From positions 1,674,001 through 1,738,000 of the forward strand of contig NZ_QKNW01000001.1 of the NCBI RefSeq assembly GCF_009663395.1: a DNA stretch of 64,000 bases. The letters are read 5' to 3'. Source of the stretch: Halosegnis longus. GTDB taxonomy: Archaea > Halobacteriota > Halobacteria > Halobacteriales > Haloarculaceae. Positions 42,250-54,917 of the stretch are shown here, piece by piece (within the stretch, counting starts at the first letter, position 1; the number at the start of each line of letters is the position of its first letter). Position numbers and translations under genes: made by a program. The notes under the pieces were generated by a model. It was given only the letters and a program-made list of their open reading frames with translations, did not search any database and had not been told where the DNA came from.

Positions 42250-42283
42250 CGGTCTAACTGATAGGCTACTCTTCACCGGTGTG

Positions 42284-43693
42284 ATGGACGCACAGCAGTC
42301 ACGGCGCTCCGTACTGAAAACCACTGGACTGGCGGCAACAGTCGGTCTCGCTGGGATGGCGGGCTGTTCCAGCCTCGGTGGTGGAACCGGCGGTGGCAAC
42401 GCTGCCCAGCAAATCAACTTCGAGAACCTCGGCAACCGAGAGGCGGGCGAAGACGTTGAACTGGAGTTTTGGATTTCGATCGGCGCTGAAGATCTCGTCC
42501 AAGGTATCGTCGACCGATTCAACGAACAGAGCGATTCGATTACCGTCTCGGTCTCGAATCAGGGGAACTACAACGAGGTTTGGAACCAGACGCAACAAGC
42601 ACAGACCGCCGGGAGTCCACCAGAACTGGTTCACCTCAACGCCGTGAGTACGCTCCCAGCGTGGGCAGAAGATGTCGTGATTCCAGCTGAGGATCTCATC
42701 GGTCCAGAGATTGACCGCAGTAACTTCGTCAGCGCAGTCAGCAACTACTACGTTATTGATGATACGCTGCTGGGGCTTCCGTTCGGCGTTTCAACGGTCG
42801 CGTGTAGCTACAATCGTTCTGCGTTCGAAGCAGCCGGACTGGCCTCACATCCCGACGATGTCGAACTAACGACGTTCGACGAGTGGCAGGCCGCCGCCGA
42901 TGCTGTGATGGCCGAGACAGAGATGAGCAGTGGCGTCACGTGGCCACAGCTCGGCTGGTTTTACGAGACGTTCTTCGCGATGCAAGGGCAAAACGTCATC
43001 AACAACGAGAACGGCCGGGCGAGTCCTGCGACGGCGTCGTACTTCGATTCCGACGCGGCCCAGCGGATGTACGAGTGGAACAGCAGCATGTACGAGTCGG
43101 ATCGCTACCAGCTGTCCGCTGACTGGAGCGAGGCCCGACAGGCATTCCTCAATGGACAGGTGGCAGTGCAGATGGACTCATCAGCCGCGCTGGCCGCCCT
43201 CTCGGATGGGGCCCAAGAAGCCGGCTTTGAGCACGGTGTCGGAACCGTACCGTCAGCGACGACCGATGGACGAGAGGGACCTATCATCGGTGGCGGCGCA
43301 CTGTTCGTGCCAACAGGCATCGACGGCGCAGAACTGAAAGCAGCCGCCGAACTCATGCTTTGGCTGTCACAACCCGAACAGCAAGCAGAGTGGCACATGT
43401 CGACTGGCTACTACCCGCTGAGCCGAGAGGCGATCTCGATTGCAGAAGAGCAAGGATTCTACGAGGACTCACCCCAGTTCCGTCGTGCGTTCGAGCAGTT
43501 CGCAAGCCGGCCGGAGACGCCCGCAACAGCCGGCGCATTCACCTACGACCACGGTGAGATGCGGACCGAAATCGTCAACGGGTTGGACCGACTCTACGGC
43601 GGGAGCAGCGTCGAAGATGTCGTGTCATCGACGCAATCGAATGTTGACGACGTGTTGGCGCGGGCAAGTGACGCCGATCCACGTTCTGAGTAG
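42284..43693 (+). CDS. ugpB: Extracellular solute-binding lipoprotein of ABC importer
   Basis: 469 residues from ATG 42284. The N-terminus has a Tat motif SRRSVLKTTGLAATVG and a lipobox MAGC (Cys near residue 28), followed by a Ser/Gly linker. The mature part is an SBP family 1 fold: ELEFWISIGAEDLVQGIVDR, FGVSTVACSYNRSAFEAAG and a Trp-rich ligand region (GVTWPQLGWFYETFF). It delivers its ligand to the permeases outside the membrane. Glycerol-3-phosphate or a glycerophosphodiester is inferred from the neighbouring phosphodiesterase; sugars cannot be excluded for this family. Confidence 0.9.
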   Translation: MDAQQSRRSVLKTTGLAATVGLAGMAGCSSLGGGTGGGNAAQQINFENLGNREAGEDVELEFWISIGAEDLVQGIVDRFNEQSDSITVSVSNQGNYNEVWNQTQQAQTAGSPPELVHLNAVSTLPAWAEDVVIPAEDLIGPEIDRSNFVSAVSNYYVIDDTLLGLPFGVSTVACSYNRSAFEAAGLASHPDDVELTTFDEWQAAADAVMAETEMSSGVTWPQLGWFYETFFAMQGQNVINNENGRASPATASYFDSDAAQRMYEWNSSMYESDRYQLSADWSEARQAFLNGQVAVQMDSSAALAALSDGAQEAGFEHGVGTVPSATTDGREGPIIGGGALFVPTGIDGAELKAAAELMLWLSQPEQQAEWHMSTGYYPLSREAISIAEEQGFYEDSPQFRRAFEQFASRPETPATAGAFTYDHGEMRTEIVNGLDRLYGGSSVEDVVSSTQSNVDDVLARASDADPRSE

Positions 43694-44596
43694 ATGGCCG
43701 AGCAACACTCTCGACTACAGGTCTTCACGAGCAACTGGCAGGCAGCGGCACTACTCCTGCCCACCCTCGCGCTCATCTCGGTCTTTCTCTACTATCCGTT
43801 TCTCGAAACGGTGCAACTGAGCTTCTATCAGCTGCGAGTGCTCGGTAGTGGTGAGTGGGTCGGGCTACAAAACTACGTACAGTTGTTCGAGTCCGGAGCG
43901 TACCGAAACAGCTTGATTGTCACTATACTGTTCACTGCAGCCACGGTGACAGCCTCGCTGTTTCTCTCCCTCATCATCTCGTTCCTCATCCATGAGGCCA
44001 ACCGATTCACGGATCTCTACTTGGTGGCCGCGATTTGGCCATACGCGATGCCGCTGGCTGTTGCCGGTATTGTCCTTGATTTTCTTATCAATCCCCGGAT
44101 TGGCGTTGTTACGTGGGCGATTGAAGCGTTGACGGGCTTTCAATTTGCGTGGCAGACAAACGGGGCCCTCGCCCTAGTGGCTGTCATTATTGCTGCCGTC
44201 TGGCAGGGGCTGGGCTACAGTATCATCTTCATGACAGCCGCATTCAACCAAGTCCCCGACTCAATTACCGATGCAGCCAAGCTGGATGGGATCGGACGGT
44301 TCCAGCGGCTGTTTCGCATCTACGTCCCCCTCATTTCGCCTGTGCTCGTGTTTCTGATCGTCATCCAGACGATCGGAGCGTTCTTCGGTGGCTTCGCCCT
44401 CATCGATCTGATGACAAGCGGTGGTCCGAGCAACGCCACGAACGTGTTGATGTTCAATCTGTACCAGGACGCCTTCGTGAACCAACGATTCGGCTACGCC
44501 TCCGCACAGTCTGTCGTCCTGTTTGGATTCGTTGCCGTGTTGATGTACGTTCAGTTACGTGTCACTGACCGCTACGCGTACTACGGGGGTGCCTGA
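43694..44596 (+). CDS. ugpA: ABC transporter permease (UgpA type)
   Basis: 300 residues; ATG 43694 directly follows the stop of the binding-protein gene. Six membrane segments, starting with AAALLLPTLALISVFLYYPF. The EAA loop is DAAKLDGIGRFQRLFRIYVP, which docks to the ATPase, near residue 200. It forms half of the membrane channel with the next gene. Close spacing shows one operon. Confidence 0.92.
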   Translation: MAEQHSRLQVFTSNWQAAALLLPTLALISVFLYYPFLETVQLSFYQLRVLGSGEWVGLQNYVQLFESGAYRNSLIVTILFTAATVTASLFLSLIISFLIHEANRFTDLYLVAAIWPYAMPLAVAGIVLDFLINPRIGVVTWAIEALTGFQFAWQTNGALALVAVIIAAVWQGLGYSIIFMTAAFNQVPDSITDAAKLDGIGRFQRLFRIYVPLISPVLVFLIVIQTIGAFFGGFALIDLMTSGGPSNATNVLMFNLYQDAFVNQRFGYASAQSVVLFGFVAVLMYVQLRVTDRYAYYGGA

Positions 44597-44597
44597 C

Positions 44598-45455
44598 GTG
44601 TCGATCGTCCCAGACACCGTCAACGAGCGGCTGTCGACGACGACCGGTGACAGCCAACTGGCGACGCACGGAGCACTCTGGCTCATCATCTCGGTACTGA
44701 TTTTGCCAATTGCACTGGCTGCAGTGTACAGTACACAAACGACGAACGCTGTGTACCAAATTACGAACGTCTTCCCGGGGTCTGCACTCGTCGAGAACTA
44801 CACTACGGTACTGTTTGAGTACAACTTCGGACAGTATATGTGGAACTCGTTCGTGATGGCGACCGTCGTTATCGTCGGGAAACTCGTCTTCTCGCTGCTC
44901 GCTGCGACAGCACTGGTGTACTACGACTTCCGGTTTCAGTCGCTCATCTTCTATGCAATTCTGTTTACGCTCCTGATGCCACTCCCTGTCCGAATCGTCC
45001 CGCTGTATCAACTAATGGCCGATATCGGCTGGCTCAACTCGTTTGCGGGGCTTACTTCCCCGTTTATCGCCAGTGCGACAGCCGTCTTCTTATTCCGACA
45101 GCAGTTCCGCTCAATCCCTGCATCGGTCGTTGAGACAGCCAAGCTGGACGGAATTGGCCCGATCCAATTTCTGGCAAACGTTCTCATCCCGATGTCGAAG
45201 GGGATGATCGCTGGCGTCACGGCAATCATGTTTATCTCGACGTGGAACGCGTACCTGTGGCCACTTGTCGCGATTATCGACCGCACGAATCAAGTCGCTC
45301 AGGTCGGCCTTCGGTACATCCAGGGGACCGGTGCAGAGGGCTTCGTCCAGTGGAACCTCGTCATGGCCGCTGGCATTCTCGTGTTAATTCCGCCCCTCAT
45401 CGTGCTCCTCGTCGCTCGCCGATATCTCCTCTCTACGCTGGGTGGTGGTGAGTAA
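44598..45455 (+). CDS. ugpE: ABC transporter permease (UgpE type)
   Basis: 285 residues from GTG 44598, just after the stop of the first permease; an in-frame ATG at 44559 would overlap by 38 bases. Six hydrophobic segments and the EAA loop ETAKLDGIGPIQFLANVLIP near residue 190. It ends with IPPLIVLLVARRYLLSTLGG. Together with the partner permease, ATPase and lipoprotein it completes a CUT1-class importer. A small broken membrane gene follows 43 bases later. Confidence 0.9.
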   Translation: MSIVPDTVNERLSTTTGDSQLATHGALWLIISVLILPIALAAVYSTQTTNAVYQITNVFPGSALVENYTTVLFEYNFGQYMWNSFVMATVVIVGKLVFSLLAATALVYYDFRFQSLIFYAILFTLLMPLPVRIVPLYQLMADIGWLNSFAGLTSPFIASATAVFLFRQQFRSIPASVVETAKLDGIGPIQFLANVLIPMSKGMIAGVTAIMFISTWNAYLWPLVAIIDRTNQVAQVGLRYIQGTGAEGFVQWNLVMAAGILVLIPPLIVLLVARRYLLSTLGGGE

Positions 45456-45804: not shown

Positions 45805-46158
45805 GTGAACGCTGACACGTTCGATGAACGACTCGCCGCCGTCGAACGCACGCTCACCGACTCCGAGACGGCTCCCGGTTCACTCGCCGAGGAAGCCGAC
45901 CTCCAACAGCGGCTCGCGACCGTCGAGGCGCGAATCGACGCGCTCGAAACGCGGCTGGCTGACGTTGAGGGCGAGGTGACCGCCGTCCGCGCACACGTCG
46001 ACGATGCCCGGCGGGTGGACCGAGAGACCGAACGGGTCGCCGAGCGTGCACTCGCACTCGCTCGCGAGCAGCCGACCGAGCCTGCGCCGCCGACATCCAC
46101 CCGGACCACCTCTCCGGTATCACGACTGGTCGCTCGGCTCCGAGCGCTCGTGTCGTGA
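45805..46158 (+). CDS. Coiled-coil protein opening the pilus-like cluster
   Basis: 117 residues from GTG 45805. Most of the chain is heptad sequence (DLQQRLATVEARIDALETRL, VEGEVTAVRAHVDDARRVD) followed by a Pro/Thr-rich linker and a basic C-terminal helix SPVSRLVARLRALVS. It has no membrane segment and should be cytoplasmic. I place it with small haloarchaeal coiled-coil proteins (DUF7310-like, from memory). Its stop overlaps the next start (GTGA), so it belongs to the operon and may scaffold the ATPase. Confidence 0.8.
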   Translation: MNADTFDERLAAVERTLTDSETAPGSLAEEADLQQRLATVEARIDALETRLADVEGEVTAVRAHVDDARRVDRETERVAERALALAREQPTEPAPPTSTRTTSPVSRLVARLRALVS

Positions 46159-46589
46159 TTGTTCGACTCGCGGTAGCCGTTCTGCTCGCTGGCGCGCTCC
46201 TCGGTGTCGGGCTTCCAGCCGCCGAGACCGCCCGCACCGAGCGAGCCGCTACCCTCACACAGAACGAACTCATCGAGTTTCGCGAGACGACGGCGAGATT
46301 CCGGACGCACAACGACGCCACCCGACCGGAACGACCGGGCGCGGTGCGAATCCACAGGCTCCGGGTGCCGGCGGGAACGACCATCCGGCTCGGGGTCGGT
46401 CCACACAACGAGTCGCTCCGGTGGAAACACGACGCGCGCCGGGGGCGCGTCGAGACCGACCTGCCCTTCGCTCGCTCGGTCCGACTCACCGCGGGGAGCC
46501 ATCGCCTCCGACTCGGGCTGGTCCGCGTGGACGGGAAGGTGCGGATTCGGCTCCGGACGTTCAAGTCGGATGCCGGGACCACCGGCTGA
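46155..46589 (+). CDS. Exported protein of the pilus-like cluster
   Basis: 144 residues from GTG 46155. The N-terminus is a signal peptide or single anchor (VRLAVAVLLAGALLGVGLPA), followed by ETARTERAATLTQNELIEF. The rest is beta-rich (IHRLRVPAGTTIRLGVGP, LPFARSVRLTAGSHRLRLGL), a compact extracellular domain. Family unknown to me (DUF7311-like, from memory). It overlaps the coiled-coil gene by four bases and is followed after one base by the ATPase gene. Confidence 0.8.
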   Translation: MIVRLAVAVLLAGALLGVGLPAAETARTERAATLTQNELIEFRETTARFRTHNDATRPERPGAVRIHRLRVPAGTTIRLGVGPHNESLRWKHDARRGRVETDLPFARSVRLTAGSHRLRLGLVRVDGKVRIRLRTFKSDAGTTG

Positions 46590-46590
46590 T

Positions 46591-48348
46591 ATGTTCGATT
46601 TCGGCGACGATTCGGACTGCGACTGCGTGGCGCAGTTCGTGGACGACACGCTCCGGCTCGACGCGAGCGACTGCCCCGACGACGGCGACCTCGCCACCGA
46701 GTCCAACTGTCGGGCGACGGCTATCGGTGCGCTCCGCGACCGCGACGCCGACCTCGTGGTCGTTCGCTCGGCCGGGCTCGACCGCCGGTACGAGGCCGCG
46801 ACGCCGTTGCTCGTCGCCGCCGGCCGGTTCGCTGCCCGCGCCGACTTCCACGACGAGCCACTCGCGGACCGCGCGCTCGCGGACCCCCTCGACGCTGCAC
46901 GGCTCGCCGCCGGTCGGGCCGGCCCGGTCGCTACTATCGCCGCCGAGACCGGCCTCGTCGAGTGTGCGACCGCGACCGAGGGGTACGAGACGCTGTTCCG
47001 GCCGCAGGTCGCACCGATACTCGCGACCGAGCGCGTCGTCGAACGCCCGCCGCCGGAAGCCACGCTTCGTGACCGGTACGAACTCGACACCGGCGCGACG
47101 GTCAGACTGTACGACGCCCCGGACGCGGACCTGCCGATGTATCATCTCACGCCGGTCGAACTCACGCTCGACGGAGCCGCGACGGCGACGCTCGAAACCG
47201 CCAGCCAGCGACTCGTGACCGACGCACTCGAAGGCCAGCGGGCCGCCGGCCGCGCCGTCAGAGCCGTGGCGAGCGACGACCAACCCGTCGAGACGCTCGC
47301 CGCTGTCCTGGACAAACACACCCGCGGGTTTGGCGTGCTCGCTGACGTCTTCGCCGACCCGGCCGTCACCGACGTGTTCGCGTCCGCACCGGTCGGCGAA
47401 ACCCCGGTCAGACTCGAACACGAGGGCCGAGCCGTCCGGTCGAACGTCGTGTTCACTCCACAGACCGCCGACGCGCTCGCCTCGCAGTTTCGTCGCGAGA
47501 GCGGGCGGGCGTTCTCGCGCGCGAGTCCGACGCTCGACGCCGCCGTCACCGTCGCCGGGCGCTCCGTCCGCGTCGCGGGCGTCACCGACCCCGTGAGCGA
47601 CGGGACCGGCTTCACCTTTCGTGCCGACAGTCGCGACCGGTTCCGACTCGCGGACCTCGTCGCGAACGACACCCTCACACCGGCGGTGGCTGGCCTGCTC
47701 TCCGTCGCCGTCGAGCGGAGTGCGTCCATCCTCGTCGCCGGCGGGCGCGGCGTCGGGAAGACGACCTTGCTCGGCGCACTGCTCGGTGAACTCGACGCCG
47801 GCACCCGAACCGTCGTCGTCGAGGACACCCCCGAACTCCCGGTGGATTCGCTGCGCGAGGCCGGCCACGACTGTCAGCGGCTGCACGTCGAGCGCGACGG
47901 TTCGGGGATGGGACCGACCGAGGCGCTCCGAACCGCGCTCCGACTCGGCGAGGGCGCAATCGCCGTCGGCGAGGTTCGCGGCGACGAAGCGGTCGCGCTC
48001 TACGAGGCGATGCGCGTCGGCGCGGACGGCACGACGCTCGGGACGATTCACGGGGAGGACCCGGAGACGGTGCGCGAGCGCGTCACCACGGACCTCGGGG
48101 TGGCTCCGACCGCCTTCGCCGACACCGACCTCGTGGTGACCCTCGAACGAACTGACGGCCGTCGCGTCGCGGACGTGTCGGAGGTGGTCGGTCGCGACGA
48201 CCCCGCCTTCGCCCCGCTGTTTTCTCCCGGGGAAACGGGTCGCATCGACCGCGGTAACAGTGCCGTCGTCGCGTCCCTCGCCCGGCCGGCCGAGACCTAC
48301 AGCGACGTGCGCGAGGCAATCGACGGCCGCGCGGCGACGTTCCGATGA
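46591..48348 (+). CDS. Type II/IV secretion ATPase (FlaI/TadA/VirB11-like)
   Basis: 585 residues from ATG 46591. The C-terminal half is a clear secretion ATPase: Walker A AGGRGVGKTTLLGALL, Asp box VEDTPELPVDSL, Walker B-like AIAVGEVRGDEA and His box GTIHGEDPETVRERV. The N-terminal 250 residues are unusual. They begin DFGDDSDCDCVAQFVDD with Cys at about 10, 12, 28 and 40, then many Ala/Arg-rich helices. Known relatives drive archaellum, pilus or Tad assembly. The next gene overlaps by four bases (ATGA) and encodes the matching membrane platform. Confidence 0.92.
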   Translation: MFDFGDDSDCDCVAQFVDDTLRLDASDCPDDGDLATESNCRATAIGALRDRDADLVVVRSAGLDRRYEAATPLLVAAGRFAARADFHDEPLADRALADPLDAARLAAGRAGPVATIAAETGLVECATATEGYETLFRPQVAPILATERVVERPPPEATLRDRYELDTGATVRLYDAPDADLPMYHLTPVELTLDGAATATLETASQRLVTDALEGQRAAGRAVRAVASDDQPVETLAAVLDKHTRGFGVLADVFADPAVTDVFASAPVGETPVRLEHEGRAVRSNVVFTPQTADALASQFRRESGRAFSRASPTLDAAVTVAGRSVRVAGVTDPVSDGTGFTFRADSRDRFRLADLVANDTLTPAVAGLLSVAVERSASILVAGGRGVGKTTLLGALLGELDAGTRTVVVEDTPELPVDSLREAGHDCQRLHVERDGSGMGPTEALRTALRLGEGAIAVGEVRGDEAVALYEAMRVGADGTTLGTIHGEDPETVRERVTTDLGVAPTAFADTDLVVTLERTDGRRVADVSEVVGRDDPAFAPLFSPGETGRIDRGNSAVVASLARPAETYSDVREAIDGRAATFR

Positions 48349-50042
48349 GTCGCCCGATGATCCTGTGGTTGGCGAGACGCTCTCCCCGAGTGCTCGACCG
48401 CAACCCGGACGCCGACCTGTCGGCCGCGCTCGACCTGCTCGGCATCGGAGTCGATGCCAAGACGTGGCGTCGAGCCGGCGACGGAGCGGCGCTCGTTCTG
48501 GTCGCCCTCGGTGTCGCGGTAACGCTGCTCATGCCACCGGGTGTGCGCCCGCTCGCGCTCGCCGCGACGCTCGCGCTCGCCGCGGCAGTTGTCGAGGCGA
48601 CCACCCGCCTCCCCCCGATGGCTGCGACTGTCGTCAGACGGCGAGCGTTCGGCGGCGCGCCGTGGCTGGTGTGTCGTGCCGCGATGCGACTCCGCGTGAC
48701 GCCGACGCTGGAGGTCGCTGTTGCGGTCGCCGCGACGAATCCGACGACGACGCTCGACCGCGCGCTCGCGGCCTCGGTCCGTCGCGGCCGGGCGACCGGA
48801 ACCGCCGGCGTCGACGACTTTCTCGGACGGTGGGGTTCGTTCCCGCCGCTCCGGCGGGGGATTCGCCTCCTCGCCGACGCGACCCGGACGGACACCGACG
48901 ACCGACCAGCGGCTATCGACCGGGCGCTCGACGCCGTCCTCGATGGGGTGCGCGAGCAGGCGGCCGAAGACGCCGCCGCCCTCCGGGGGCCGGTCACCGC
49001 CGTCTACGCCTTCGGCGTCCTCCTGCCGCTGGCGTTCGTCGCTGGACTCCCGGCCGCCGGGGTCGCGGGCCTCCCCGTCTCGCTTCCTGCCGTGGTCGTC
49101 GTCTACGATGTCGTGCTCCCGGCCGGACTGCTCGCAGCCGGCGGGTGGCTCACGACGAAGCGACCGGTCACCTTCCCGTCGACGCGGATTCCGACTACCC
49201 ATCCCGCTGTTCCCGACCGACCGTGGCGCGCACTCGGGGCCGGAGTCGCTGCCGCCGCCGGTGCCGCCGTCGTTACCTCCCTCCTGCTTCCGAGTTGGAC
49301 TCCACCACTGGCTGTCGTCGGCGTCGGACTCGGGACGGCTCTCGCCGTCTACTACCGACCGTACCGACAGCTCCGGGCGGAGACAGCCACGCTCGATGCC
49401 GGGCTTCCGGACGTGCTGTACGGCGTCGGCCGTCGGGTGCGCGACGGTGCGCCGGTCGAGCGGGCCATCGACGCGGCGGCGGAGACGCTCGACTCGCCGG
49501 CAAGTGAGGCTTTCGCGCGGGCGAACCGGCAGGGAGCGGCCCTCGGTGTCGGCATCGAGACGGCGCTGTGTGGGGAGCGAACGCCCCTCGCGACGATACC
49601 GAGCCGTCGGGTCGCGGATGTCGCTCGGCTGTTCGTCGCTGCGGCCCGAACCGGCCAGCCGGCCGGCCCGTCGCTCGTCGCGGCCGGTGAACACCTCGCC
49701 GCGCTCGCCCGTGTCGAAGCGGAGACTCGGCGGTCGATTCGCCACGCTACGGGGACGATGGGGAACACGGCGGCGCTGTTCGGTCCACTCGTCGGTGGCG
49801 TGACGGTCGCGCTCGCCGGCCGGGTCGGTGGTTCACAGCTCGGTGAGACGATTCCGCAGGCCGGACTCGCAGTCGCGGTCGGCGTCTACGTGCTTCTACT
49901 CGCGGTCGTCCTGACCGGTCTCGCGACCGGGCTGGAACGCGGCTTCGACCGCTCCGTCGTCGGCTATCGCGTCGGGCTCGCACTCGTGGCCGCGACGGCG
50001 ACGTACCTGACTGCGGCCGTCGCCGGCGGGCTGCTCGTTTGA
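48345..50042 (+). CDS. Tad/type II secretion F-family membrane platform protein
   Basis: 565 residues. Two copies of the T2SSF fold are visible, each with a soluble helical part and membrane helices. The first has LDLLGIGVDAKTWRRAGD then GAALVLVALGVAVTLLMPP; the second has GLPDVLYGVGRRVRDGAPVE, then TAALFGPLVGGVTVALAG and LAVAVGVYVLLLAVVL. About eight or nine helices are expected. FlaJ/TadC relatives sit on the ATPase and pull pilins into the fibre. No prepilin peptidase is in the cluster, so it must be supplied from elsewhere. Confidence 0.9.
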   Translation: MSRPMILWLARRSPRVLDRNPDADLSAALDLLGIGVDAKTWRRAGDGAALVLVALGVAVTLLMPPGVRPLALAATLALAAAVVEATTRLPPMAATVVRRRAFGGAPWLVCRAAMRLRVTPTLEVAVAVAATNPTTTLDRALAASVRRGRATGTAGVDDFLGRWGSFPPLRRGIRLLADATRTDTDDRPAAIDRALDAVLDGVREQAAEDAAALRGPVTAVYAFGVLLPLAFVAGLPAAGVAGLPVSLPAVVVVYDVVLPAGLLAAGGWLTTKRPVTFPSTRIPTTHPAVPDRPWRALGAGVAAAAGAAVVTSLLLPSWTPPLAVVGVGLGTALAVYYRPYRQLRAETATLDAGLPDVLYGVGRRVRDGAPVERAIDAAAETLDSPASEAFARANRQGAALGVGIETALCGERTPLATIPSRRVADVARLFVAAARTGQPAGPSLVAAGEHLAALARVEAETRRSIRHATGTMGNTAALFGPLVGGVTVALAGRVGGSQLGETIPQAGLAVAVGVYVLLLAVVLTGLATGLERGFDRSVVGYRVGLALVAATATYLTAAVAGGLLV

Positions 50043-50061
50043 CCTCCTCCCGGTGTCGAGG

Positions 50062-50068
50062 TTTATAT
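50062..50068 (+). promoter_or_regulatory. TATA box inside the pilus-like cluster
   Basis: TTTATAT is centred about 26 bases before ATG 50092. It gives the four exported-protein genes their own promoter, separate from the ATPase genes. Confidence 0.5.
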
Positions 50069-50091
50069 CAGAAGCCGGGGCCACGCGCCGT

Positions 50092-50553
50092 ATGTTCGAC
50101 ACGGCTGAGGGATGGTACAGTTGGGTCGGCGTCTCGTTCGCTGCGGCGGGACTGTTGGCCGTCGCGCTCGCGCTCCCGACCGCGCCGCCGCCGGATGCGC
50201 GGGCGGCCGCGACCGTCGTCGACGGTGTCGCGGACAGCGACTACGCCGGCCGGACGACCGTCGATATCGACGCGGCGCGGCTCCGGCTCACGACCCGCGG
50301 GCTGTCGCTCGCGGCCGACCGTGGGCGCTCGCACGCGCGGTTCGACGCCGGGCCAATCGTTCCCGTGCACGGCGGACCACTGCGGGCCGTACTCGATGGT
50401 GCCGACCCGCGGCGCGCGTTCGATGGTCCCGGTCGCTTCGCCGCAGCGGTCGAGCAGGCGCGTGCTCGCACTCCGGCGTGGCGACCCGCTCCCGAGTCGC
50501 TTTCGGCACGACAGCTAACGTGGGGTGAGACGCGTGTCACGCTCGTCGGATAG
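50092..50553 (+). CDS. Membrane-anchored exported protein (pilus-like cluster)
   Basis: 153 residues from ATG 50092 (MFDTAEGWYSWVG). One N-terminal helix, SFAAAGLLAVALALPTAP, then PPDARAAATVVDGV and an extracellular domain with no Cys. The block ALPT-P-PPDA-AAATVV recurs in the gene at 50902, so the two are probably paralogues. Family DUF7283-like (from memory). It starts a four-gene coupled unit. The 29-base overlap with the next gene suggests translational coupling. Role in the machine is unknown; a minor pilin or adaptor is possible. Confidence 0.78.
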   Translation: MFDTAEGWYSWVGVSFAAAGLLAVALALPTAPPPDARAAATVVDGVADSDYAGRTTVDIDAARLRLTTRGLSLAADRGRSHARFDAGPIVPVHGGPLRAVLDGADPRRAFDGPGRFAAAVEQARARTPAWRPAPESLSARQLTWGETRVTLVG

Positions 50554-50905
50554 GGGGCAGACCGACCCGCTCGCAGCGCTCGTCGCCGTCGCGGCCGTCG
50601 GACTCGCGCTCTCGGCGTACGGGGGGCTGCTCGGTGACGTGCTCGCTCCGGCGACCCCCTCGCCAGCGCCGCCGCTCGATTCGGTGACCGACGACCTCGC
50701 CCCGGCCGGTGTCGCCGACCCGCAACGGCTCGCTGGTCTCTCGGTGGGCGAGACGACCCACGTCTCGCTCGCGGTTCGCGGCCGCTCGTGGAGCGTCGGG
50801 CCGACGCCACCGGAAGAGGGTGTGCGCCACGCCCGCCGGCGACTTCCGATTCGGCGGGCGAACGGCACCGTCGACGCGGGCCGAATCCGGGTGACCGTCT
50901 GGTGA
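50525..50905 (+). CDS. Pilin-like/TadE-like protein with RGQT motif
   Basis: 126 residues from GTG 50525; GTG 50534 gives MSRSSDRGQTDP, a more usual start. The N-terminus SSDRGQTDPLAALVAVAAVG, continuing LALSAYGGLL, looks like a haloarchaeal pilin start: charged residues, Gly, then a long hydrophobic helix. A processing site within the DRGQTDP stretch is plausible but unproven. A Pro/Ala linker and a small beta-rich domain (THVSLAVRGRSWSVGPTPPE) follow. It overlaps both neighbours (29 bases upstream, GTGA downstream). Confidence 0.75.
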   Translation: MRRVSRSSDRGQTDPLAALVAVAAVGLALSAYGGLLGDVLAPATPSPAPPLDSVTDDLAPAGVADPQRLAGLSVGETTHVSLAVRGRSWSVGPTPPEEGVRHARRRLPIRRANGTVDAGRIRVTVW

Positions 50906-51741
50906 GCCGCGGACTCTCCACGACGGCCGACGTGCTCGTCTGTCTCGTGCTCGTCTCCGCGGCCGCGACGACGCTCGCGCTCCCGACCACACCGGCGCAG
51001 CCGCCGGATGCCGACGCCGCCGCGACGGTCGTGGAGCGCACGACGACCGATATCGAGTACCGACTCGTCGCCCCCGCCGGCGAGCACGCTCCGAAGTCGA
51101 TGCGTGACCGGCGAGCGAGCGGTCGGCTCTCGTCGCTTCTCGCCCGCAGCGCCGTCCGGAACGCGACCGTCGACGGTCGCCAACTGACGCACACGAGCGA
51201 CGAGTTCGAGCGGCGGGTCGCTGCCGCGGTCGTGAACGCCACCGCCCCGCGGACGCAGGTGGTGGCTCGCTGGCGGCCGTTCCCCGGGGCAGCTATCGGT
51301 GGAACGGCCGCCGCTGGCCCGGTCCCGCCCGCCGACGCGACCGTCGCCAGCCAGACCCGGAGGGTCGCGACTGCCGGGGAGCCGCGGCGGCAGGCGAGCC
51401 GTGCGGCCGAGGACTTCGGCTACGCCGGTGTCGCGGCCGTCGCAGCGTCACGGACGACCGAACGGCTGTGGCCCCCTACGGGGATGCAGAACGCACTCGC
51501 GGCGGACTATCCGACCGACCGGCTCGCAGTCGCGCGGTACGAAGCCGCCGGTCGCCACCTCGGCGTGTCAGTCGAGGATGCGGTCGCGGCGCAGAACGCG
51601 ACGGCGGCGAATAGCCGACTGCGCGAGACACTCCAACGGCGCTACGAAACGCAGCTCAGAGAGCGGTTCGACTCCCCGCAGGCGGCCGCTCGGGCACTCC
51701 AGCCCGGCGTGACGCTGGTCGTTCGGCGGTGGTCGGCGTGA
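50902..51741 (+). CDS. Membrane-anchored exported protein, paralogue in pilus-like cluster
   Basis: 279 residues from GTG 50902. One N-terminal helix LVCLVLVSAAATTLALPT followed by PPDADAAATVVERTTTDIEY, matching the gene at 50092 (PPDARAAATVV). The rest is Ala/Arg/Thr-rich with helices (RLAVARYEAAGRHLGVSVED; ATAANSRLRETLQRRYETQL). No catalytic motif. It overlaps its neighbours by four bases at each end (GTGA). Confidence 0.78.
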   Translation: MSRGLSTTADVLVCLVLVSAAATTLALPTTPAQPPDADAAATVVERTTTDIEYRLVAPAGEHAPKSMRDRRASGRLSSLLARSAVRNATVDGRQLTHTSDEFERRVAAAVVNATAPRTQVVARWRPFPGAAIGGTAAAGPVPPADATVASQTRRVATAGEPRRQASRAAEDFGYAGVAAVAASRTTERLWPPTGMQNALAADYPTDRLAVARYEAAGRHLGVSVEDAVAAQNATAANSRLRETLQRRYETQLRERFDSPQAAARALQPGVTLVVRRWSA

Positions 51742-54683
51742 ACGAGCGCGCCCGCGTACCGTTCGCACTGCTCGGGGTCGTCCTCCTCGTCGGGAGTGCG
51801 AGCATCACGGCCGGACTCGGTGCGGTGACACCGACGCGCGAGCCGGCAACCGAGGCAGCCGTCGAGCAGAGCCGCACCTCGCTCGGTGGGGTCGTCCACG
51901 ACGCGACTCGGGCGGCAGCGAGGGATGCAGCGGCGTCGCCAGTCGTCGCGCCGGCGAACACGACACTCGGTCGGACGCTCGCGTCGACGGGCACCCCGTT
52001 CCGGGCCGCGCTCGAACTCCGGACGTATCTCGCGGTCCGCGACCGACTCTCGGCGACGACAGAACGCGGGCTCACCGTCGAGCCGTCGCTGCCGCCGCTG
52101 CAGGACTCGACGGATATCGCCGCCGCGCTCGCACGGACGACGGTCGAGCCGGTGGGAGCGAACGCGACGGCCGTTCGAACGACCGTCGCGAACGTCACGC
52201 TCACGGCGACGCGCGACGGTCGCGTCGTCGATACGTACCGGGTCTCGCCGACCGTGACCGTCCAGACACCGGTGTTCGCCCTCCACGAACGGACGGCGAG
52301 CTACCAGCAGCGACTCGACAGCGGTGCGACCGAGCCGGGACTGGCGCGCCGTGCGACCGCGCGCCTGTACGGGGTGGCGTGGGCGCGCGGACTCACCCAG
52401 TACGGCGGCGGGCCAATCGCCAACGTCGTCTCGAATCAACACGTCGCCGTAGCGACGAACCACGCGCTTCTCGCCCAGCAGCGGGCGACGTTCGGCGCGG
52501 CCGACGACACCGGTCGCCGTGCGGTCCGGGTCGCCGCCGCTCGCGCCGCAGGAACCGACCTGCTGGCCGCGACCGGACAGTCCGGCCAGCAGATACAACA
52601 GCTCCTCGCGGGCGTCGACGCCGCGACACCGGGGTCGACGCTCGACCCGGTGACAGCGGCGAATCCATCGACGACGCCGGAGTCCACGCTGAACGTCGCC
52701 GTCGGCGAACAGGCGACGACGGCGTTCGACCGGTTCGCCGCGGCCGACCTCGAGACCGCGCTCGCTGCACCGTACCGTGCGACGGTCGAACGCCGACGTG
52801 TCGTCACCGACAGAGCGACGACGACCACCGGGCACGCACGCCCTACCGGGGCAAACTGGACGCTGGTCGGGACCGAACAGACGCACGAAACAACGGTAAC
52901 GAGTGTGGAACCGACCGCCGGCTCCCCCACGCAGCCGTGGCACAGCCTCGCCACGACTGCCCGCCGTGTCACCGAGACGACGCGGACGGAGCGCCGGTGG
53001 CGACGCAATCACACGGCGCGCACTACGGTGGAGACGACGACGGAGACGCGCCGCGTCTCGATACGGCTCGTCGCTCGCCACGACGGCGGGAACGCGCCGT
53101 CTGCTCCGATACGTTCCGTCCACGAGCGCGGTGGCGCACTCGACGGCCCGAACCTCGCAGCTATCGAAGGCCGGGCGAGGACACAGCTACTCGGTGACGA
53201 AGGAACAGTCGACGCGCTCGCGCGCCGGACCAGAAGCGACGACACCACCCAGACGACGGTTCGGGGCGAACGACCTTCCGAACTGCGCGACTGGGTGTAC
53301 CGCGACATCGTCCGGCTGCGCGAACAGGTGGCGAACGTCTCGGTCGCGGTCGAGCGGGGCGCACTCGGCACGTATCAGGTGAACCCGAGTGGCGAACTCG
53401 CGGCGGAGCTCCGAGCGCGGCGCGCGCAGCTGGTGGACGCTCCCGACGCGTACGACGGCGTCGCGGACCGCGCACGCGTCGCTGCACGCGGTGCGTATCT
53501 CGATGCGGTCATCGCACAACTGGAACGCCGGGCCGACGACCGCAACGGCGTGAAAGAGCGGTTTGCCGACCTGCTCGCGGCACGCGGACTGCGTCTCGAC
53601 CGCCTGCGCTCGATGATGACGGCGCGCTCGCAGGTCACGACGCCGACGAGCCGTTCGATTTCGGGCGTCGGTGGTCCCTACTCGCTTGACGTGGACGGAG
53701 CCCCGGCGTACCTCACGCTCGCGTCGGTGAACCGGACGCAGACCGACTCGCTGCGCGAGGGGAGCGTCCGCCCGCTCGCCGCGCGCAACACGAACATCTT
53801 CACCGTGCCGTACGGCGATGCCGCTGACGGACTCGTCGGGAAGCTATTCGACGGCGACCGGGTCAGGCTCCGGTCTGCAGCGCGTGCGCTCGCGGCCGGC
53901 GAGGAACTCGCGACTCACGACACGCTCGAAGCCGACGTTGAGGCCGCAGTGACCAGACGCCGGCGCGGGATGCGCCGCGTGCTCCGGCGGGCCGGCGTGG
54001 GTGACTCCCGTAGCGAGCGTCGCCGAATCGTCGCAACCGGACTCGGAGCGTGGCAGACGGTCGCCGAGCGCGCGCTCGCCGTCACCGAAAACCGTGGTCC
54101 CGACGCCGTCGCTGCCGTAGCAGTTCGGCGCTCCCCCGGCTCCTTCGACGGGCCCGCCGACCGCGACGACCTGCGACGGTCGCTCCGGGCCGCAGCCACT
54201 GATGGTCGTGGCGTCCCCGAGTCGTCCGTGACGCCACACGTCGAGCGCGCGAGGCAAGTGGTCGGGAAACTGGCGAAACAGAGTGTCGGGCGCGCGGCGA
54301 ATCAGACGACGACTGCCGTCCGCGAGCGACTGGAGTCGAAAACGGGCAAGCTAGCGGCTGTGCCGAGTGGACTCCCCGTGACGCCGCTTCCCTCGCAGTG
54401 GTACGCGACGATGAACGTCTGGGACATCTCGGTTCGAGGCGGCTACGACCGATTCAGCGTCAGCGTCCCCGACGGCGGGCCGGGACGCCGGCTCACCTAC
54501 GTCCGTGACGGTCGCGCCGTCGGTATCGACTGGAACGGCGACGGAGAGCCAGCGCGTGCGGGTACGGCCACGGCGGTCACGTTCGCCTACCGGACGGCCG
54601 TCGTGGTCGTCGTCCCGCCCGGTGGACAGGGCGTCGGCGACGTGGACGGCAACGCGGACGAGCGCTCTGCGGGATGGCGATAG
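51738..54683 (+). CDS. Very large exported protein of the pilus-like cluster
   Basis: 981 residues from GTG 51738 (four-base overlap with the previous gene). One N-terminal helix VPFALLGVVLLVGSASITAG anchors a long Thr/Ala/Arg-rich extracellular chain with many Asn-x-Thr/Ser sites (for example NATA, NVTL, NTTL, NVSV), suited to N-glycosylation. Two DxNxDG-like calcium-loop sequences occur near the end (DWNGDGE and DVDGNADE). It may be a tip adhesin or surface component of the machine; that is inference. No family I know (DUF7286-like, from memory). It is the last gene of the coupled unit. Confidence 0.8.
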   Translation: MNERARVPFALLGVVLLVGSASITAGLGAVTPTREPATEAAVEQSRTSLGGVVHDATRAAARDAAASPVVAPANTTLGRTLASTGTPFRAALELRTYLAVRDRLSATTERGLTVEPSLPPLQDSTDIAAALARTTVEPVGANATAVRTTVANVTLTATRDGRVVDTYRVSPTVTVQTPVFALHERTASYQQRLDSGATEPGLARRATARLYGVAWARGLTQYGGGPIANVVSNQHVAVATNHALLAQQRATFGAADDTGRRAVRVAAARAAGTDLLAATGQSGQQIQQLLAGVDAATPGSTLDPVTAANPSTTPESTLNVAVGEQATTAFDRFAAADLETALAAPYRATVERRRVVTDRATTTTGHARPTGANWTLVGTEQTHETTVTSVEPTAGSPTQPWHSLATTARRVTETTRTERRWRRNHTARTTVETTTETRRVSIRLVARHDGGNAPSAPIRSVHERGGALDGPNLAAIEGRARTQLLGDEGTVDALARRTRSDDTTQTTVRGERPSELRDWVYRDIVRLREQVANVSVAVERGALGTYQVNPSGELAAELRARRAQLVDAPDAYDGVADRARVAARGAYLDAVIAQLERRADDRNGVKERFADLLAARGLRLDRLRSMMTARSQVTTPTSRSISGVGGPYSLDVDGAPAYLTLASVNRTQTDSLREGSVRPLAARNTNIFTVPYGDAADGLVGKLFDGDRVRLRSAARALAAGEELATHDTLEADVEAAVTRRRRGMRRVLRRAGVGDSRSERRRIVATGLGAWQTVAERALAVTENRGPDAVAAVAVRRSPGSFDGPADRDDLRRSLRAAATDGRGVPESSVTPHVERARQVVGKLAKQSVGRAANQTTTAVRERLESKTGKLAAVPSGLPVTPLPSQWYATMNVWDISVRGGYDRFSVSVPDGGPGRRLTYVRDGRAVGIDWNGDGEPARAGTATAVTFAYRTAVVVVVPPGGQGVGDVDGNADERSAGWR

Positions 54684-54713: not shown

Positions 54714-54917
54714 GTGCTCGACGAGACTGCCGACTGGTATCTGCTCGCCGGCGTGGTGTGCGCGCTGCTCTCGCTGCTCGCCGTCCCGATAGCCGGGCTG
54801 GGAGCCGTCTACTGTGGCTACCGGATTCACGGCGACCGCCACCCGGTGTACAGCTACGCGCTGGCCGGCGTCGGCGCGTTCTCGCTGGCCGGCTGGGCCG
54901 CGTACCTGCTGTCGTGA
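54714..54917 (+). CDS. Small two-helix membrane protein
   Basis: 67 residues from GTG 54714 (MLDETADWYLLAGVVCALL). Two hydrophobic segments, LLAGVVCALLSLLAVPIAGL and YALAGVGAFSLAGWAAYLL, flank a loop with RIHGDRHPVYS. It is only 30 bases after the large exported protein gene and may be cotranscribed with it, but its sequence gives no link to the machine. Confidence 0.65.
   Translation: MLDETADWYLLAGVVCALLSLLAVPIAGLGAVYCGYRIHGDRHPVYSYALAGVGAFSLAGWAAYLLS

Follow-up and report, generated by a model that had tools for sequence, protein, structure and literature searches.

A conserved haloarchaeal gene cluster that very likely encodes the assembly proteins and minor subunits of a subclade 4F type IV pilus

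Archaeal type IV pili of subclade 4F have been described by Makarova et al. (2016, PMC4858521), whose main text points to an ATPase with a Cys-rich N-terminus, a trait that is strong in methanogens, to a halobacterial coiled coil (arCOG07564) and to a PilA-type pilin (arCOG02981) at the Methanocella locus. The prepilins of archaeal filaments follow a simple rule, with G, A or S at position -1 and a charged residue at -2, preceding a hydrophobic stretch (PMC4371748). Here we consider a 64,000-nucleotide stretch of Halosegnis longus DNA (contig NZ_QKNW01000001.1, C1 in what follows, positions 1,674,001 to 1,738,000; "the window") and within it a cluster of eight plus-strand, mostly overlapping genes at 45805-54683 (C1 ~1,719,805-1,728,683). 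Very likely this cluster supplies the assembly proteins and minor subunits of a subclade 4F type IV pilus; since its features match the 4F description, as given in the main text of that paper, we read it as such a pilus with newly linked components. The genes, in their order along the DNA and with lengths in amino acids (aa), are the following; a slash marks the signal site.

45805-46158, + strand: DUF7310 coiled-coil protein, 117 aa (Pfam PF23991, 74.3 bits); the operon's first gene in relatives.
46155-46589, + strand: DUF7311, 144 aa, with a single N-terminal hydrophobic segment (Pfam PF23993, 82 bits); GTGA overlap with DUF7310.
46591-48348, + strand: VirB11/PilB-type assembly ATPase, 585 aa, with an N-terminal Cys motif, CxC ... 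DCPxxGxLxxxxxCR (PF00437, 63.6 bits).
48345-50042, + strand: PilC/TadC-type membrane platform, 565 aa, ~7 predicted transmembrane segments (T2SSF, 22.5 bits, slightly below cut-off); orthologues adjoin the ATPase.
50092-50553, + strand: DUF7283, 153 aa, an N-terminal transmembrane anchor and an exported domain (PF23954, 154 bits); the ATG start at 50092 is conserved.
50525-50905, + strand, with a GTG start at 50525 or 50534: DUF7285, pilin-like, class III signal DRG/QTDPLAALVAVAAVGLALS (PF23956, 83.8 bits).
50902-51741, + strand: DUF7284, pilin-like, class III signal SRG/LSTTADVLVCLVLV, alpha/beta ectodomain (PF23955, 243.5 bits).
51738-54683, + strand: DUF7286, 981 aa, a large exported protein with a class III-like signal ERA/RVPFALLGVVLLVGS (PF23957, 1014 bits).

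All eight reading frames listed in a preliminary description of this DNA are present on the plus strand, and the GTGA or ATGA overlaps that it gave at 46155, 48345, 50902 and 51738 are exact, as is the one-base gap at 46590. Its 29-base overlap at 50525 holds if that start is used, but relatives prefer the GTG at 50534, leaving an overlap of 20 bases (the family median is 23). The ATPase motifs GGRGVGKTT (Walker A), GEVRGDEA and GTIHGED are there and are largely invariant in 14 relatives. When all eight proteins were searched against Pfam profiles the six of unknown function fell into existing DUF families, every exported or unknown protein scoring far above the cut-off, while the ATPase matched T2SSE and the platform lay just below the T2SSF cut-off. 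The duplicated T2SSF domain formerly ascribed to the platform was rejected, as its two halves align at a mere 4% hhalign probability and there is a single T2SSF match, itself below cut-off. In the collection of papers searched for the cluster's DUF names, none was found to use any of them.

In the window the signal sites read DRG/QTDPLAALV in DUF7285, SRG/LSTTADVLV in DUF7284 and ERA/RVPFALLGV in DUF7286. Among motif-bearing relatives both -1 and -2 fit the prepilin rule in 100 of 112 DUF7285, 69 of 104 DUF7284 and 104 of 107 DUF7286 sequences, and position -1 is G, A or S in 111 of 112 for DUF7285 and G or A in 106 of 107 for DUF7286, all of these being motif-anchored counts without a shuffled control of their own. 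The H-domain of DUF7284 carries a conserved Asp, because of which the automatic signal-site rule misses this protein. DUF7311 and DUF7283 each have an N-terminal anchor; there is no class III site in DUF7311, and the rule-based matches in DUF7283 are an acidic DA or EG whose function as a site we do not assume. An A24 prepilin peptidase is encoded elsewhere in the same genome, at C1:1429359, and the two marks of a type IV filament, prepilin signals and a genomic peptidase, are therefore both found. The earlier statement that no pilin or peptidase could be recognised is thus correct locally, but not once the three prepilin-type signals, the peptidase elsewhere on the chromosome and a distant candidate pilin, DUF7382, are taken into account.

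DUF7286 occurs in 224 of 292 Halobacteria genomes, representing 58 of 77 genera, and also in the Haloferax volcanii control. Around it 68 loci were fetched, a chosen rather than a random set, and in 45 of these the eight genes stand in the same order as in the window, in keeping with the dedicated, syntenic system that had been anticipated; a separate scan finds the order likewise kept in the majority of 64 named loci. Clustering of the eight genes is far above chance. A 4-base overlap is the commonest spacing in relatives between DUF7310 and DUF7311 (38/47), DUF7285 and DUF7284 (31/59) and DUF7284 and DUF7286 (40/62), and the junctions that flank the ATPase are not conserved, with median gaps of 53 and 44. 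The fixed stoichiometry once read from the overlaps is a weak conclusion, as the ATPase-PilC pair is separable and lies elsewhere in several haloarchaea, among them Natrialbaceae-type genomes where it is unlinked from the DUF block, and in every methanogen that was examined. In 45 of the 68 loci the operon has a DUF5791 gene nearby, indicating that the chromosomal site is old. At this ancestral site five genomes (G012, G056, G067, G125 and G234; loci L128-L132) retain no more than an operon reduced to remnants by internal deletions, from which it follows that the system is dispensable.

The ATPase tracks DUF7286, even when the two are unlinked and across the methanogens. With a haloarchaeal orthologue defined by a score of >700 bits (paralogues score <175 bits), it is present in 12 of 14 haloarchaeal genomes that have an unlinked DUF7286 block or are genus mates of such genomes, and an intact orthologue is found in 0 of 27 DUF7286-negative haloarchaea, although two of these (G044, G073) retain a fragment of its N-terminal part. 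Outside Halobacteria, where the threshold is >365 bits, the counts are 23 of 25 DUF7286-positive versus 0 of 55 DUF7286-negative genomes. Retention of the ATPase in relatives that lack the exported genes, which would have counted against a dedicated machine, is therefore seen in intact form in 0 of 82 DUF7286-negative genomes. Haloarchaeal and methanogen ATPases form one clade in our tree, apart from the sampled paralogues (support 100/98), and paralogues in the same genome score 124-142 bits, compared with 820 for the window ATPase. Of the N-terminal cysteines C28 and C40 are invariant and C10 and C12 near-invariant in haloarchaea.

DUF7382 is the probable major pilin of the system. In haloarchaea it is a stand-alone protein of ~150 aa, reading RA/IEGLPIRLVIALVVGVASLSVMMNM and followed by a small Ig-like domain, with an almost invariant H-domain; the copy in the genome studied here, with the N-terminus DERA/IEGLPIRLVIALVVGVASLSVMM, lies at C1 ~1,190,563-1,191,003, 0.5 Mb from the cluster. 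Across 116 Halobacteria genomes it is found in 83 of 89 with DUF7286 and in 1 of 27 without. The six genomes in which it was missed include two that have only operon remnants (G056, G067) and two (G005, G079) that do encode the pilin motif beside the operon. The pilin gene adjoins the operon in Natrialbaceae-type loci; ten haloarchaeal loci show this neighbourhood, the gene there being usually divergent from one for a HerA-like ATPase that precedes DUF7310. This second ATPase (334 aa, DUF87 and HerA_C, Walker A intact) is likewise encoded divergently from the pilin in the present genome, at C1 ~1,191,076-1,192,080, and is paired with it in most pilin loci. A score of >400 bits is reached in 18/18 haloarchaea with the system and 0/24 without it, and one of >310 bits in 6/6 methanogens that have the system; in G043 and G068 there is no more than a remoter homologue. 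Some of the remnant genomes retain a distant pilin or HerA-like gene. One genome (G058, locus L217) has a second complete Natrialbaceae-type copy of ten genes, pilin and HerA-like gene included, that looks like a whole-unit transfer.

In genomes that we take, in line with a control match, to be Methanocella-like and Methanosarcina-like, a DUF7311-like gene, a gene at the DUF7283 position, DUF7285, DUF7284 and DUF7286 lie together or nearly so, with the ATPase-PilC pair elsewhere. Profile comparison backs the DUF7311 homologue (95.7%), and the methanogen ATPases (L249-L254) have Cys-rich N-termini. At two Methanocella-like loci (L249, L250) PilC is followed by the gene for a class III pilin, G/VEGLPVRLIVVLVIGVIALA, with a weak DUF7382 match, and a HerA-like gene lies near the ATPase, behind which L250 has genes for an A24 peptidase and for a paralogue of DUF7311. 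Next after DUF7286 the methanogens encode a secreted protein of ~200 aa whose C-terminal part has a hydrophobic segment (L208:12379-12987, L206:5421-6032); it matches no Pfam family above cut-off.

What was observed here is which genes are present, the signals that they carry, how far they are conserved, and how they are linked and co-occur. We propose the following mechanism. PibD, encoded elsewhere, would trim the prepilins, and a hexameric PilB-type ATPase on the PilC-type platform would drive a filament composed mainly of the stand-alone DUF7382. DUF7285, DUF7284 and the large DUF7286 would be minor pilins that prime or cap this filament, DUF7286 being a candidate tip or minor pilin, with DUF7283 and DUF7311 as membrane-anchored accessory proteins, DUF7310 as a cytoplasmic regulator or scaffold and the HerA-like ATPase as a second motor. 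Some three quarters of the sampled haloarchaeal genomes, that of Haloferax volcanii included, carry the system, whose proteins still go by the name "domain of unknown function"; it can now be put to the test as a machine for which a candidate pilin, minor pilins and a second motor have been named.

Several points weigh against this picture. Processing and filament formation are inferences, as are the parts assigned to the subunits and a possible role in adhesion or in the exchange of DNA. In Haloferacaceae-type genomes (L061, L065, L142-L158 and similar) DUF7284 starts M-T-S-T-V-L-D, or M(xx)TSTVLD..., without the basic n-region and peptidase site retained elsewhere among the families. DUF7286, at ~980 aa, and DUF7284, which has no fold match, are unusual as minor pilins: the AlphaFold models (pLDDT 92 for DUF7284 and 81 for DUF7286) gave no match in the PDB at E<=0.001 in a structure search. 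DUF7283 and the methanogen gene in the same position align at an hhalign probability of 6.8%, with no detectable homology. Two genomes (G045 and G250, locus L108) keep the DUF7286 block without an ATPase orthologue, and in one (G355) the HerA-like gene occurs in the absence of the pilus system. Finally, the genomes compared are not phylogenetically independent, so that P-values for co-occurrence overstate its significance.

The DUF7283-7286 block might be an independent surface complex next to which the pilus motor lies by chance, as would fit the finding that several Natrialbaceae-type genomes, and the methanogens, have it unlinked from the ATPase. Even when unlinked, however, the block is retained or lost together with ATPase, pilin and HerA-like gene, and we regard this explanation as highly improbable. 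A pseudopilus of the type II secretion kind, exporting enzymes in place of building a long fibre, would make sense of several pilin-like subunits with large ectodomains beside an ATPase and a platform, and no substrate is co-transcribed, a point counted in its favour. The separate, co-conserved pilin, with its almost invariant H-domain and small Ig-like domain, resembles a filament subunit, however, and since haloarchaea are without an outer membrane there is no clear need for such a role; this too seems quite improbable.

A third alternative is a machine for DNA exchange linked to the pilus, the HerA-like ATPase pumping DNA and the 4F pilus establishing contact or capturing DNA. An enzyme of the HerA/FtsK family (DUF87, HerA_C) with an intact Walker A is encoded either at the locus or as the partner of the pilin, and it does co-occur with the system, and functional analogies are at hand in Ups and Ced of the Sulfolobales and in TdtA and the competence pilus of Thermus, where HerA-type TdtA is required for DNA donation (PMC5365140). 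Yet the locus showed neither a pore, nor a nuclease (NurA), nor a partner resembling ComEC, the protein is only distantly similar to CedB/CedD, and HerA-fold ATPases have other jobs as well, and we consider a DNA exchange machine unlikely. Should the HerA-like ATPase indeed move DNA, as it may, this would bear on haloarchaeal DNA exchange. The boldest form of this idea, a previously undescribed ten-component apparatus of haloarchaea and methanogens, we judge unlikely: in it a type IV pilus would be inherited as one unit together with its own HerA-like DNA pump, serving to capture DNA or to pass it from cell to cell, and DUF7284 and DUF7286 would be pilin-like subunits with new folds. A subclade 4F type IV pilus remains our preferred interpretation of the cluster.

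Near the cluster, a 67-aa reading frame with two hydrophobic stretches (window 54714-54917) lies between DUF7286 and DUF5791 and was not found in the loci fetched from other genomes. Upstream, at window 42281-45455, is an apparent carbohydrate-type ABC transporter operon (a solute-binding lipoprotein and two permeases), whose permease at 44559 was not found adjoining the pilus operon in other fetched loci.

How, then, does the locus compare with described machines? Of the label "Tad/type IV pilus-like" given to it previously, the second half stands and Tad does not. Among solved structures CpaF, which is a TadA-type ATPase, comes closest in sequence to the window ATPase, but the latter scores 133.8 bits against a cut-off of 373.15 for TIGR03819, there is one 565-aa platform gene in place of separate TadB and TadC genes, and the locus has no TadZ, TadV or Flp pilin. 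An archaellum was rejected as well (FlaI/ArlI equivalog, 85.7 bits, cut-off 550). Like the cluster, Halobacterium salinarum pil-2 is a PilB-PilC operon restricted to haloarchaea with three FlaFind-positive prepilins (PMC4292770), but it comprises seven ORFs in 6.9 kb as against six genes in 8.1 kb from our ATPase onward; identity was not adopted on these grounds of gene count and length, the comparison being with the published description. Three genomes of one related genus (G012, G067, G234) are among those that retain only remnants of the present locus. With the PilA/PilB3-C3 system of Haloferax volcanii (PMC4371748) our system shares a motor operon lacking a major pilin, pilins of near-invariant H-domain encoded elsewhere and PibD acting in trans, but it differs in the clade of its ATPase and in a pilin that is DUF7382 and not of Pilin_N type. 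Published 4F loci are noted for an FtsZ-like gene, and none is seen beside the cluster in the window; the HerA-like partner and the DUF7283-7286 block are not mentioned in the main text of Makarova et al. (PMC4858521). The likenesses to what that text describes are several. Methanogen relatives occur in both, our own ATPase tree showing only a single clade of haloarchaeal and methanogen ATPases. DUF7382 probably corresponds to the mostly stand-alone PilA-type pilin found beside the motor in Methanocella, and DUF7310, the halobacterial intracellular coiled-coil partner, is probably arCOG07564. The cluster and its relatives also share with subclade 4F a VirB11-family ATPase that carries a Cys-rich, variable N-terminal domain and stands next to a single TadC-type platform (PMC4858521).

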